Part shown: positions 19,193-61,968 of the stretch, piece by piece | Numbering within the stretch: position 1 is the first letter of the stretch | How the letters are laid out: each line of letters starts with the position of its first letter | Assembly (NCBI RefSeq): GCF_007741475.1 | Contig: NZ_CP036261.1 | Span: forward strand, 744,001-808,000 | DNA from: Rosistilla ulvae | GTDB lineage: Bacteria > Planctomycetota > Planctomycetia > Pirellulales > Pirellulaceae | DNA length: 64,000 nt | Reading direction: 5' to 3' | Notes under the pieces: model-generated | Seen by the model: only the letters and a program-made list of their open reading frames with translations | What the model was told of the DNA's origin: nothing | The model's database searches: none | Position numbers and translations under genes: made by a program

Positions 19193-22113
19193 GGGTGGCA
19201 CGGGCTGTGCCCGTGCTATCTGAGTCTGAAGGTGCTCTTGGATGGCGTTGGGCGGGTTGCAAGCTTGTGCAAAGTCGAGGGCTTCGATCCCGTGGCACTG
19301 GCATTAGCCAGTGGCACCCTGTGTGGCAACCGGTTGGGTTGGTGGGTGGCACGGGCTATGCCCGTGCTATCTGAGTCTATAGGTGCTCTTGGGTGACGTT
19401 GGTCGGATTGCAAGCTCGGGCATCGTTGAGATGCTTCGTTTCTGAGGCACTGGCAAAGCCAGTGGCACCCTGTGTGGTTACCGGTTGGGATTATGGGTGG
19501 CACGGGCTATGCCCGTGTTCGCCGAGTCTGGAGTTGCTCTTTGGGTGACGTTGGTCCGTTTGCAACCTTGGGCAACGTCGAGGGCTTCGTTTCCGAGGCA
19601 TTGGCAAAGCCAGTGGCACCCTGTGTGGTAACCAGTTGGGTTGGTGGGTGGCACGGGCTATGCCCGTGCTATCTGAGTCTATAGGTGCTCTTGGGTGACG
19701 TTGGTCGGATTGCAAGCTCGGGCATCGTTGAGATGCTTCGTTTCTGAGACACTGGCAAAGCCAGTGGCACCCTGTGTGGTAACCAGTTGGGTTGGTGGGT
19801 GGCACGGGCTATGCCCGTGCTATCTGAGTCTATAGGTGCTCTTTGGGTGACGTTGGTTGGATTTCAAGCTTGGGCAACGTCGAGAGCTTCGATCCCGAGG
19901 CACTGGCAAAGCCAGTGGCACCCTGTGTGGCAACCGGTTGGGTTGGTGGGTGGCACGGGCTATGCCCGTGCTATCTGAGTCTATAGGTGCTCTTGGGTGA
20001 CGTTGGTCGGATTGCAAGCTCGGGCATCGTTGAGATGCTTAGTTTCTGAGGCACTCGCAAAGCCAGTGGCACCCTGTCGTGGAACGTTTCTGCAACGTGG
20101 TGTCGCACGGGCTATGCCCGTGCAGTCAATTCCAGGATTTGTTTTGGTCGACGTTCAATTTTGGTGAAACCCTAGAGGATTCGTTCAGGAAGCACCGGTA
20201 ACTCGTGAGTCGGTTGGCTCTACGTCCGTTTGCACTAGAGGGGGCCGTGCATACCTTTTGTTGTGGGTGATGTTGGTATGGGCCGTCTTCTATAATCGAT
20301 ATGGTTGAATCGAGGGTTTCGGTTTCGTCGTCTTGCGTGGAAGGAGTGTTTCACTTCCGAATTCTCAGGTCCGTTCATTCGTCCACTCTCGGTTCTGGTG
20401 GAGATGTTCGTATGATGGAAATAGTCGGTCAACCACATCGGAAAAAGATCAAGCATTACCATCAGCCCGGCCACCTTCACGAGTTGACGTTTTCGTGCTT
20501 TCACCAGATGCCGCTGTTGACCAACGATGCTTGGCGGATGCACTTGTCGCGGTCGGTGGAAACCGCTTGTGAACAGCATCGGTTCCAACTTGTTGCTTTT
20601 GTTTTCATGCCGGAGCATGTGCATTTGCTTGTATTGCCCCTTTGTCCCGAACCCGATATCGGTTTGCTTCTGGCTGCGATGAAGCAGCCGTTTTCTCGGC
20701 AAATCAAACAGATCTTGATCGACCGGAATAGTTCGTTGCTCGAACGATTGACGGTCCAAGAACGTCCAGGGAAAAAGTGCTTTCGGTTTTGGCAGGCAGG
20801 TCCTGGATTTGATCGAAACATCTATTCCGCGAAAGCGATCGCTGCATCGATTGACTACATTCATACAAACCCCGTAACACGTGGTCTGTGTAAACGTGCG
20901 ATCGATTGGAAATGGTCCAGTGCTCGCTACTACCACGCAGAGCCAATGTTCCAGCAGTGTTCTAACCTGCCTACGATAGCTCGTCTGCCGCCACAAGCAT
21001 TCGACGATTTTTCTCGAGTGGATTGAGTCGGCTCGGCCGATGCTTGTGCAAAGTCGAGGGCTTCGTTCCTGAAGCACTGGCATAGCCAGTGGCACCCTGT
21101 CATGCAACGATCCTGTGAGGTGGTGTGGCACGGGCTACGCCCGTGCATTCCTGCTTCGAAGCTTGGACAGGTCGTTGTCGGATGCTTGTGAAGCATTTGG
21201 GCTTCGTTCCTGAGGCACTGGCATAGCCAGTGGCACCCTGTGTGTTAGCTGGTTGGGATTGTGAGTGGCACGGGCTATGCCCGTGTTGGCTGAGTCCGAA
21301 GGTGCTCTTCGGATTGCAAGTTTATGCAACGTTTAGGGCTTCGTTCCTGAAGCACTGGCATAGCCAGTGGCACCCTGCCGTGGAAAGTTCCTGCAACGTG
21401 GGGTGGCACGGGCTATGCCCGTGCAATCCTGCTTCGAAGTTTGGACAGGTCGTTGTCGGTTGCTTGTGAAGCATCAGGGCTTCGTTCCTGAGGCACTGGC
21501 ATAGCCAGTGGTACCCTGGGCAACCGGTTGGGATTGTGGGTGGCATGGGCTATGCCCGTGTTATCTGAGGCTGAAGGTGCTTTTGGGTGACGTTGGTCGG
21601 ATTGCAAGTTTGTGTATCGTTGAGGGCTTCGTTCCTGAAGCACTGGCATAGCCAGTGGCACCCTGTGTGGTGACCAGTTGGGATTGTGGGGTGGCACGGG
21701 CTGTGCCCGTGCTATTTGAGTCTGAAGGTGCTCTTGGATGATGTTGGTCGGGTTGCAAGCTTGTGCAACGTCGAGGGCTTCGTTCCTGAGGCACTGGCAT
21801 AGCCAGTGGCACCCTGTGTGGTGACCAGTTGGGTTTGTGGGTGGCACGGGCTGTGCCCGTGTTACCTGAGTCTGAAGGTGCTCTTGGGTGACGTTGGTCG
21901 GATTGCAAGCTTGGGCAACGTTCAGGGCTTCGTTCCTGAGGCACTGGCATAGCCAGTGGCACCCTGTGTGGTGACCTGTTGGGATTCTGGGTGGCATGGG
22001 CTATGCCCGTGTTTGCTGAGTCCGAAGGTGCTCTTGGGGGGCGTTGATCAGATTGCAAGCCTGTGCAACGTTCAGGACTTCGATCCGCTGCACTGGCATA
22101 GCCAGTGGCACCC
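19193..22113. repeat. Array of 14 REP-pair (BIME-like) units filling a tail-to-tail gap
   Basis: Each unit has a head hairpin (arms GCACGGGC/GCCCGTGC around TAT or TGT) and a tail hairpin (arms GCACTGGC/GCCAGTGC around ATA or AAA, followed by ACCC). Heads begin at 19198, 19348, 19500, 19651, 19802, 19953, 20105, 21128, 21268, 21406, 21543, 21694, 21844 and 21994; 14 tails run from 19295 to 22090. The head (19343-19366) and the complement of the tail (21215-21238) match at 21 of 24 bases, so each unit is an inverted pair of one REP type. The period is 150-152 bp for most units and 137-140 bp for three after the transposase gene. The array begins 33 bp after one stop codon and ends 8 bp before the next. 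Confidence 0.95.
20412..21026 (+). CDS. REP-associated tyrosine transposase (RAYT, TnpA_REP / IS200-like Y1 family)
   Basis: A 204-aa Y1 HUH transposase-like protein. The HUH motif is His69-Val-His71 in FMPEHVHLLVLPL, and the likely catalytic Tyr149 is in SIDYIHTNPV, followed by the RAYT-typical DWKWSSARYY. The N-terminal KKIKHYHQPGHLHELTFSC matches the usual RAYT opening. ATG 20412 is chosen; the longer frame from 20301 adds 37 residues without family character. The gene lies inside one unit of the REP array, between head 20105 and tail 21074. Known RAYTs cut single-stranded REP hairpins and are single-copy, host-domesticated relatives of IS200/IS605 transposases. All motifs look intact, so it is probably functional. 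Confidence 0.93.
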   Translation: MMEIVGQPHRKKIKHYHQPGHLHELTFSCFHQMPLLTNDAWRMHLSRSVETACEQHRFQLVAFVFMPEHVHLLVLPLCPEPDIGLLLAAMKQPFSRQIKQILIDRNSSLLERLTVQERPGKKCFRFWQAGPGFDRNIYSAKAIAASIDYIHTNPVTRGLCKRAIDWKWSSARYYHAEPMFQQCSNLPTIARLPPQAFDDFSRVD

Positions 22114-53338: not shown

Positions 53339-54193
53339 TTAGCGAGCGTAGCGGGTGCTAGCCTGAATGACGCGACGCTTGCTGTTCAAGTAAGCACTTG
53401 GGTCTACAACCGGTGCTGGTGGCATTGGAGCAGCGTCTTCAACTACTGGAGCTTCGACTTGAACCGAAGTTCCGCCGTTGCAGCTCGAGCAAGCTGGTGC
53501 GGCTGGAGCAGCGTAGCTAGTAGCTGCACATCCGCAGCTGTCGCAAGCCGAATCGCAGTCGCTCTTCTTGCAGCAGCTCAGGCCGCCGAACAACTTCGAC
53601 AACAGGCCACCGCTCTTCTTCTTTCCGCATGGGTCGCAACCGCAAGCTGGTTCGCAGCACGAAGCCGATTCGCAGCAAGAAGTTTCGCATCCGCAAGCTG
53701 GTTCGCAGCAAGCAGCAGCTTCACATCCGCAAGCTGGTTCGCAGCAAGCCGAAGTTTCGCAGCACGAATCACAGCTGTTCTTCGATCCGCCGAAAAGCTT
53801 CGACAGCAGGCCACAGCACTTTTTCTTCTTCGAACCGAAGCACGACTTGCTGTCGCAAGATGCTTCGCAGCAAGATGCTTCGCAACCACAAGCTGGTTCG
53901 CAGCAAGAGGTTCCGCACAGCGAAGTTTCAACTCCGCAGGTTGGTTCGCAGCAGGAAGCAGCTTCGCAGCAAGAGGCTTCGCAACCGCAAGCTGGTTCGC
54001 AAACCGACTCGCAACAAGAAGTTTCACAACCACATGCTGGTTCACAAACGTCTGCACAGCCAGTTTCACAGCAGCTGCTGCTTCCACCACCACACTTCAG
54101 TCCCAACATGCGGTCCAATAGGTCAAATCCGAAACCTTGCGAGCAGATGCTCATTCCGATAATCAAGGTCGTCGACAGGATTGCACGCTTCAT
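53339..54193 (-). CDS. Secreted Cys-repeat protein (284 aa)
   Basis: A signal peptide (MKRAILSTTLIIGMSICSQGFG) precedes a body dominated by repeats of CCEPACGCE and CCEASC type, with about 60 cysteines. Two near-identical insertions, KKKxCGLLSKLFGGSK-like and KKKSGGLLSKLFGG-like, separate the Cys blocks, so the central part is an internal duplication. A cysteine-poor Pro/Ala tail follows and ends in STRYAR. GGAG lies 10 bp before ATG 54193. It is probably a disulfide-cross-linked envelope protein, consistent with the Cys-rich proteinaceous coats described for planctomycetes (inference). A related but less repetitive protein is at 2098-2841. Confidence 0.82.
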   Translation of the reverse strand: MKRAILSTTLIIGMSICSQGFGFDLLDRMLGLKCGGGSSSCCETGCADVCEPACGCETSCCESVCEPACGCEASCCEAASCCEPTCGVETSLCGTSCCEPACGCEASCCEASCDSKSCFGSKKKKCCGLLSKLFGGSKNSCDSCCETSACCEPACGCEAAACCEPACGCETSCCESASCCEPACGCDPCGKKKSGGLLSKLFGGLSCCKKSDCDSACDSCGCAATSYAAPAAPACSSCNGGTSVQVEAPVVEDAAPMPPAPVVDPSAYLNSKRRVIQASTRYAR

Positions 54194-60970: not shown

Positions 60971-61968
60971 AGGCCGCAGGCCGACACAAGACCTGCCGGT
61001 GGTGTAAGCCACCGGTGTCCAAGTCCGCGCAAATGTATTCAGGCCGGAGGCCGACACAGGACCTGCCGGTGGTGTAAGCCACCGGTAGGCACCGCCCGGC
61101 AAGAAGAGCAGCCCGGAGGGCGACACATGGGATTCTAAGTGTGTCGCCCTCCGGGCTTTGTTATGGCCGGCGAGTCTGGAACCGGTGGCTTACACCACCG
61201 GCAGTTAATGTACCGCCCTCCGGGCTCAGCCAAACGAACCGCCGAACCGCCACAACCAGCTCCCCCGTCGCCTCCCCAAGGCCGGAGGCCGGCATAGGAC
61301 CTGCCGGTGGTGTGAGCCACCGGGGTCCAGAACGGCGCAGATGTCTTCAGGCCGGAGGCCGACACACGAATTGCCGGTGGTGTAAACCACCGGTAGGCAC
61401 CGCCCAGCAAGAAGAGAGCAGCCCGGAGGGCGACACATGGGAGTTGACGTGTGTCGCCCTCCGGGCTTTGTTGTGGTGGGCGATCCTGGAACCGGTGGCT
61501 CACACCACCGGCAATGGATGTTTCGCCCTGCGGGCTCCCTCGGTCCAAACGTCCGCACCAAATGCCCTTCAGGCCGGAGGCCGACACAAGAACTGCCGGT
61601 GGTGTAAACCACCGGCCTCCAACTCCGCGCAGATGCCTTCAGGCCGGAGGCCGACACGCGACCTGCCGGTGGTGTAAGCCACCGGTGTCGAGCCCTGCAA
61701 CAGAATGCCTTCAAGGCCGGAGGCCGACACAGGACCTGCCGGTGGTGTAAGCCACCGGTAGGCATCGCCCAGCAAGAAGAGAGCAGCCGAGAGGGCGACA
61801 CATGGGAGTTGAAGTGTGTCGCCCTCCGGGCTTTGTTGTGGTGGGCGATCCTGGAACCGGTGTCTGACGCCACCGGCAGTTCCTGTTCCGCCCTCCGGGA
61901 TCCAACAGTCCAAACACCCACCACCGACCTGCAAGCCGGAGGCCACCGCACGGTCTTCGTACGTGCGG
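60971..61968. repeat. GC-rich composite palindromic repeat cluster
   Basis: Seven A-B units begin with AGGCCGGAGGCCGACAC at 60971 (variant), 61041, 61279, 61349, 61571, 61641 and 61714. Each is followed by CCGGTGGTGTAAGCCACCGG, itself an inverted repeat; adjacent units are 70-73 bp apart. Interspersed are long hairpins with 18-bp arms AGCCCGGAGGGCGACACA (61110-61127 and 61420-61437) and its complement (61140-61157 and 61450-61467), and complementary CCGGTGGCTTACACCACCGG blocks. A terminal hairpin CCGCACG/CGTGCGG closes at 61946-61968. The cluster fills the tail-to-tail gap between panD and the gene ending at 62030. Reading frames across it are artefacts. Confidence 0.93.

Follow-up and report, generated by a model that had tools for sequence, protein, structure and literature searches.

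A RAYT gene within a tandem array of REP doublets

Here we describe a locus of the planctomycete Rosistilla ulvae in which the gene of a REP-associated tyrosine transposase (RAYT, or TnpA-REP) lies within a tandem array of repetitive extragenic palindromic (REP) sequences. The window, i.e., the whole stretch of 64,000 nucleotides that was analyzed, corresponds to bases 744001-808000 of one 7.48-Mb contig, and the features of the array are collected in Table 1.

A pattern search allowing up to five substitutions recovered 14 heads and 13 tails, to which a tail with a variant loop at 19295 is added (14 recognisable tails), and nhmmer with a single-consensus model of the unit gave 15 plus-strand unit matches in the array. 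The head hairpins are of the type GGGTGGCACGGGC-TAT-GCCCGTGC and the tail hairpins of the type GCACTGGC-ATA/AAA-GCCAGTGGCACCC. Since both are inverted forms of one REP (78-88% complementary in the listed pairs), each unit, with its two inverted REPs, is a REPIN (REP doublet forming hairpins). Head and tail are 101-103 bp apart in most units (type A), 89 bp in one unit and 92 bp in the two type-B units (at 21123 and 21401), and the distance from tail to next head is 45-49 bp across the array. The feet of the heads are mostly GTGG, which fits the canonical GT[AG]G, and those of the tails mostly GTGC, which does not; the head at 20100-20123 has a foot altered to GTCG, and the last tail of the left sub-array (20051) has a stem mismatch. 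The left part of the array also shows a 302-bp higher-order period, i.e., its units are locally homogenised.

Table 1. Features of the array and of its RAYT gene (window positions)
Feature	Position	Strand	Remarks
Tandem REPIN array	19193..22113	+	13 units with both hairpins recognisable, one tail-decayed unit, one right-half unit and the RAYT gene; pattern search, nhmmer
Left sub-array	19193..20074	+	6 units, 151 bp period; AAA tail loops except in the first unit
Type-B spacer	20075..20099	+	Precedes the decayed unit; spacers of this type also at 21098-21122 and 21376-21400; by eye
Complete type-B-like REPIN	20100..20215	+	Intact head hairpin 20100-20123; decayed tail ~20192-20215
RAYT upstream region	20217..20411	+	Second decayed unit at ~20260-20360 merely suggested
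RAYT (TnpA-REP) gene	20412..21026	+	204 aa, ATG at 20412; HUH H69/H71, Y149
REPIN right half	21042..21097	+	Directly after the RAYT stop; interior 21042-21073, tail hairpin 21074-21097
Right sub-array	21123..22113	+	7 units, ATA tail loops; type B at 21123-21238 and 21401-21516

The sequences on both sides of the RAYT gene

The first-pass annotation of this DNA took the head at 20100 and the tail at 21074 for the two ends of a single unit enclosing the RAYT gene. Both hairpins are indeed present and fold, that at 20100-20123 with -10.2 kcal/mol (0 of 200 shuffles as good) and that at 21074-21097 with -7.3 kcal/mol (5 of 200). Their pairing did not hold: the sequence that follows the head is colinear with an entire unit and ends in a decayed tail of its own. 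This tail is placed at 20192 by 12 of the 13 units, 92 bp from the head as in type B, and its folding does not exceed chance (79 of 200 shuffles do as well). With a model of the 12 other units, nhmmer aligned 20102-20200, head included, to model positions 3-111 (E 6.6e-11), and with the single-consensus model the same left-flank unit was found at E 5.4e-6. Without the head, the left flank still reaches a score of 39 (alignment 20144-20198). Shuffling 20124-20413 did not attain this score in any of 300 trials, whereas 2 of 3000 random segments did, these being taken from six other loci of the genome and from the parts of the window that lie outside the array; a looser scoring gave 1 of 400 shuffles for 20124-20216 and 10 of 400 for 20124-20189. 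A second decayed unit in the upstream region was considered and rejected, being not significant (110 of 400 shuffles for 20217-20413, 34 of 400 for 20260-20360).

On the other side, the claim that the ~45 bp ahead of the tail match the units was borne out, as none of 400 shuffles reached the score of 21027-21073 against the unit right halves, with 39 of 46 columns identical to the best unit, at 21689 (21027-21072), and 27 of 28 to the first unit (21042-21069). Into the RAYT coding end, the homology to the units is not significant (36 of 200 shuffles reach the score).

By these alignments, the RAYT gene has a decayed but complete REPIN on its left and a right-half REPIN on its right, so that direct copies of the tail half border it on both sides. 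The unit interiors thus match both flanks, as the first-pass check had asked, but the left flank matches a whole unit and not a left half. What the units have in common with the RAYT segment is its right terminus (3′ flank and tail REP), not both of its ends.

The RAYT protein

The protein passes the NCBI RAYT model NF047646 narrowly (81.7 bits against a cut-off of 80) and PF01797 with 26.4 against 23, both scores having been computed on a longer open reading frame (ORF) that starts at 20301; the start at 20412 was deduced from how far the alignments of relatives reach. H69, H71, Y149, N153 and P154, corresponding to the HUH and Y---NP motifs, are invariant across 21 aligned proteins. Two proteins, L106 for being out of frame and L101 for its divergent end, were omitted from the RAYT profile. 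A profile match to the solved TnpA-REP structure 4er8 was obtained at E 8.7e-8, and in a fold search with the AlphaFold2 model (pLDDT 88.4) 4er8 ranks first (E 7.4e-8, TMq 0.60), followed mainly by IS200/IS605 transposases. By motif, profile and predicted fold, the protein is classed as a class-2 type RAYT, i.e., a TnpA-REP or HUH/single-tyrosine nuclease.

Other Y1 genes and REPs of the same genome

The genome holds seven Y1_Tnp matches, six of them above the Pfam cut-off, and five of the seven, the window's included, have repeats on both sides. The gene at 1902k, below the cut-off (L044 4507-6580; G000:C1 ~1901506-1903579), lies inside an array of its own with a unit length of 132 bp. One side has four full units together with a shortened one that, by eye, consists of head and tail end; the other has a tail half followed by five units. 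This layout is similar to that of the window RAYT. Copies of one repeat stand on both sides of the genes at 1051k, 4592k and 5241k, and on one side only near the gene at 106k; for that at 3022k no such array figures in the repeat-finder listing, without further testing. As to the RAYT itself, there is one full copy and one fragment, and no second full copy.

Among the first 50 CACTGGC REPs listed (68 in all), 49 fall in 11 clusters, and the CACGGGC head with a TAT loop is listed only in the window array; a genome-wide dispersed REPIN population was not found in this genome. Four further REP arrays (L038, L039, L040 and L041, with periods of 84, ~220, 150 and 114) lie away from the listed Y1_Tnp places, and the consensus of each pairs one CACTGGC with one CACGGGC hairpin.

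The array is bordered by a 1487-aa ORF that matches NHL repeats and by a gene of the inositol-monophosphatase family, the latter on the opposite strand. Elsewhere in the window, a second REP-like array at 61042-61897 (Tandem Repeats Finder period 70 at 61553-61759) belongs to the same family as the repeats flanking the 4592k Y1_Tnp gene, and at 53642-54049 there are short tandem repeats, 15-45 bp in length, in which GCTTCGCA-like motifs occur.

Congeners and co-occurrence of REPs and RAYTs

The orthologous site was located in two congeners, with flanks 92 and 95% identical in G001 and, in G002, a 96% match on the right and a left match of 92% that starts further upstream, the large left gene having no match at the G002 site. 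Neither array nor RAYT sequence was found between these flanks, which enclose 1094 bp of other sequence in G001 and ~370 bp in G002, and no RAYT protein match at E 0.001 was found in either genome. In the three genomes compared, array and RAYT are present or absent together at this site. The ~1.1 kb at the G001 site (L179 9345-10438) resembles, by eye, an acetyltransferase-type toxin-antitoxin pair.

RAYT matches were found in 47 of 98 searched genomes (the present one included), in 21 of them at E < 1e-25, the cut that we chose to delimit the clade. In the same genomes, REPs were counted for two stems, both bearing a GTGC foot at one of their sides. The clade occurs in 18 of the 35 genomes with either REP vs 3 of the 63 REP-negative ones (one-sided Fisher 1.5e-7), in 11 of 19 with CACTGCTGG REPs (9e-5) and in 10 of 22 with CACTGGC REPs (0.0035), all of these values being uncorrected for kinship.

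RAYT cassettes in relatives

Outside the window, 16 of 35 long copies (E < 1e-25) carry perfect hairpins of the same stem on both sides within 400 bp. Among 4986 control intervals, 17 do so, a single locus supplying 15 of them. A second, overlapping set comprised the 80 best of 318 loci, from named genomes, mostly of Planctomycetes and many of Pirellulales, with few Armatimonadetes and one Zixiibacteriota record. Once 16 loci too near the locus end had been dropped, 38 of the 64 testable ones were bounded by such hairpins (control, 14 of 2761); in both sets a perfect stem of at least 7 bp with a loop of 2-5 was demanded, so that RAYTs with imperfect REPs count as misses. Oriented by their feet, 25 of the 38 are inverted head-RAYT-tail loci (by their perfect hairpins, decayed inner tails such as the window has being left out of account), nine are tail-RAYT-tail, the kind to which the window RAYT belongs if its decayed tail is included, and four have one unclassified REP. 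The outward foot is GTG(C/G), mostly GTGC, in 72 of 76 flanking REPs, and the cassette of one relative (G015) measures 717 bp from REP to REP. Compact REP-RAYT-REP cassettes whose GTGC feet point outward are frequent for this RAYT clade in Planctomycetes. C-terminal-only and internal-only matches (e.g., G081, G084, G057, G062) were not interpreted.

Truncated copies and REPINs carrying RAYT ends

Seven short N-terminal RAYT matches were found (506k in the present genome, G000; two in G005; one each in G094, G082, G090 and G019), a further one in G088 being rejected as part of a frameshifted long copy. Same-stem hairpins surround three of them (506k, G082, G090). In G090, a single open frame joins RAYT profile positions 32-73 directly to 189-228 (E 2.4e-16 and 3.7e-6), which points to an in-frame internal deletion; it is only there that both ends appear retained with the middle lost, as in miniature inverted-repeat transposable elements (MITEs). 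The G094 copy retains both parts in different frames, with no hairpins found around it, and in the 506k and G082 copies the RAYT profile recognises only the N-terminal part. The 506k copy is a 380-bp element between CACTGGC hairpins (L078 6004-6383; G000:C1:506003-506382). Its flanks and the 5′ flank of the G015 cassette have no significant similarity to the window (128, 44 and 34 of 500 shuffles), nor has its 3′ part to the unit right half (99 of 500).

A REPIN of ~180 bp in G068 is matched over its full length at four more sites (86-91%), and four of its five places are on contigs other than that of the RAYT. Its right 90 bp are 86% identical to the RAYT 3′ end, and the copies keep remains of the last eleven RAYT codons and of the stop (TGA in three, TAA in two). 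As the C-terminal LP..L-like pattern is common to RAYTs of many other genomes, these codons are likely to derive from the RAYT and not the reverse. The whole REPIN is 70% identical to its own reverse complement, so its left half, which could not be traced to the RAYT 5′ end, resembles an inverted right end more than the product of a plain internal deletion. When the 80 loci were each compared with the RAYT sequence that they contain, 12 further matches appeared, spread over 9 loci; they include 3′-end copies in L218 (inverted, 92%), L251 (direct, 79%) and L267 (direct, 90%). The L218 copy (2139-2246) is joined to a REP and lies 5′ of the RAYT whose end it repeats. Dispersed matches in G028, considered as a fossil of RAYT coding sequence, turned out to be a REPIN with a decayed head just downstream of the RAYT.

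Capture of rayt 3′ termini has been described in four rayt-adjacent bacterial interspersed mosaic elements (BIMEs) (Nunvar et al., 2010; PMC2817692), and both captured 3′ ends and RAYTs within REPIN or BIME clusters are already known from publications; a literature search found no work joining RAYTs with internal deletion.

Duplicated cassettes

Among the 80 loci, grouped by accession prefix, 14 same-genome pairs (not every possible pair) were compared, and five share a single block of 693-841 bp at 82-97% identity: L231/L284 of Blastopirellula marina (97.4%), L283/L290 of an Armatimonadetes bin (95.3%), L213/L214 of RI_361 (85.8%), L265/L281 of a bin (84.1%) and L222/L226 of Aeoliella straminimaris (82.8%). 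Two full copies on one 6.6-Mb contig of G082 are 95.6% identical over 937 bp, while the window genome has its single full copy. The flanks of the duplicates have no colinear similarity; residual matches are 136 bp at 79% upstream in L222/L226, at a shifted distance, 46 bp in L231/L284 and a few short repeats in L265/L281. Left edges, where readable, fall within ~20 bp of a REP or REP foot, and right edges extend past the tail REP by a few bases (G082) to more than 100 bp (L265/L281); REPs were not identified at the block edges of L283/L290. Three of the five pairs are from metagenome bins, which may mix strains.

These sharp-ended duplicates suggest, without proving it, that cassettes may move, segmental copying being the alternative. 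Such mobility would run contrary to the RAYT literature, as far as its accessible parts go. Multi-copy RAYTs may already be covered by a 2017 classification of RAYTs.

Comparison with known systems

About one third of rayts have been reported as directly associated with BIMEs, in an arrangement named REPtron (Nunvar et al., 2010; PMC2817692), and the window RAYT likewise has a cluster of REPs, inverted in alternation, immediately on its flanks. Unlike those cases, it belongs to another phylum, the inner REP of its left unit is decayed, and the feet are GTGG/GTGC. From the available part of the account on Pseudomonas fluorescens SBW25 (Bertels and Rainey, 2011; PMC3116915), REPINs there also have two inverted REPs per unit and form ordered tandem clusters, one beside each RAYT, but REP doublets are dispersed by the hundreds, whereas the listed CACTGGC REPs of the present genome are nearly all clustered. 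In Marinomonas REPtrons (PMC8266576), REPs are similarly multiplied around tnpA-REP rather than genome-wide; the portion of that report at hand does not describe a tandem period or unit homology.

With the class 2 of TnpAY1, as presented in the accessible sections of PMC6006769, the window protein shares the HUH, the Y---NP signature, the WQ and the flanking REPs. Class 3 is described in the same sections as common in Planctomycetes and as resembling both insertion sequences and REPtrons, one bacterium carrying three genes closely related to one another; the tyrosine motif of the window protein is, in contrast, that of class 2. The feet given there are GT[AG]G or CnGA vs mostly GTGC in our clade, and class 2 is ascribed a low conservation between copies, whereas some genomes of the clade carry near-identical ones. 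IS200/IS605 elements are alike in protein fold, in the hairpin-bounded single gene and in the sharp-ended duplicates of relatives, and differ by a Y---Q in place of Y---NP and by the lack of a second full copy in the window genome.

Origin of the array

We consider it probable that the locus is a REPtron, with a class-2 type RAYT set among tandem REPINs that are presumably cognate to it. The gene occupies one long array period, whose bounding tails, decayed at 20192 and intact at 21074, point the same way. The anatomy, the homology pattern, the recurrence of the arrangement and the lack of the whole block from the orthologous site of two congeners were observed directly. As to mechanism, the RAYT would act on the window REPs, nicking single-stranded hairpins beside the foot, GTG(G/C), that points outward, and stretches lying between REPs of like orientation would be copied or rejoined, giving an array of tail-to-tail periods; the copying could be rolling-circle-like, as Nunvar et al. 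proposed for BIMEs, or, in a tandem already formed, proceed by slippage or unequal crossing over.

Several observations weigh against this view. Taken alone, the intact hairpins read head-RAYT-tail, and the tail-RAYT-tail order depends on the decayed tail. The stems differ within the array (CACGGGC in heads, CACTGGC in tails), and the other REP arrays examined in this genome share, by eye, only REP cores with it. A clean empty site, sought in the congeners, was not obtained, both carrying other DNA between the flanks. Furthermore, the clade RAYT is absent from 17 of the 35 REP-positive genomes; among them G001 has 43 exact CACTGGC REPs, 41 in 9 clusters, with no window-type RAYT, and arrays can therefore persist, perhaps grow, without it.

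The first-pass annotation saw the 150-bp units as internally deleted copies of a local head-RAYT-tail element. Such a deletion would leave left-half homology on the left and right-half homology only on the right; as the right half is present on both flanks, the left one being a whole unit with its own decayed tail, plain internal deletion cannot explain the units, which in the window do not retain both parental ends around a lost middle. In spite of the match of 3′ flank and tail to the units, and of truncated RAYTs between REP hairpins elsewhere (G090, G082, 506k), the lack of significant unit homology to the RAYT coding end adds to making this origin improbable. What had been described as parent and derivatives gathered in one array is a real REPtron with a well-preserved array, but not a parent with deleted offspring. 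The wider idea that short REP-pair units come from REP-RAYT-REP elements fails for this array and finds backing in the truncated copies, RAYT-codon REPINs and duplicate cassettes of other loci of the clade, which appear to support it better than the window does.

An existing array may instead have received a cassette of the G015 kind, inserted in or beside a unit, with later loss of its left REP. The compactness of that cassette, the sharp-ended duplicates and the separation by the RAYT of two sub-arrays with different tail loops agree with such an insertion, which we regard as unlikely, though less so than the local deletion, no left cassette end being recognisable in 20217-20411. Slippage or unequal crossing over might also have expanded the tandem in the ordinary way, the RAYT being just a neighbour. 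Such an expansion would account for the local homogenisation (e.g., the 302-bp period) and for the G001 clusters; it is the least probable of all, given the Y1 genes of this genome with copies of one repeat on both sides and the association of REPs and RAYTs over the 98 genomes.

Beyond this locus, we put forward tentatively, at slightly less than even confidence, that the clade is not domesticated in Planctomycetes: REP-RAYT-REP cassettes would be autonomous, REPINs would be by-products arising by internal deletion or by capture of the right terminus, and the window would represent one stage of this series, its cassette having been absorbed into an array of its own by-products. The metagenome-bin origin of several duplicates and the 136-bp flank match of L222/L226 lower the probability of this reading.

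The origin of REPINs and the continued mobility of RAYTs are open questions on which these relatives bear. They supply candidate intermediates, from the full cassette and the truncated cassette to the REPIN with RAYT codons and the REPIN without them, which, together with the same-genome duplicates of cassettes, would make both questions testable on real sequences.

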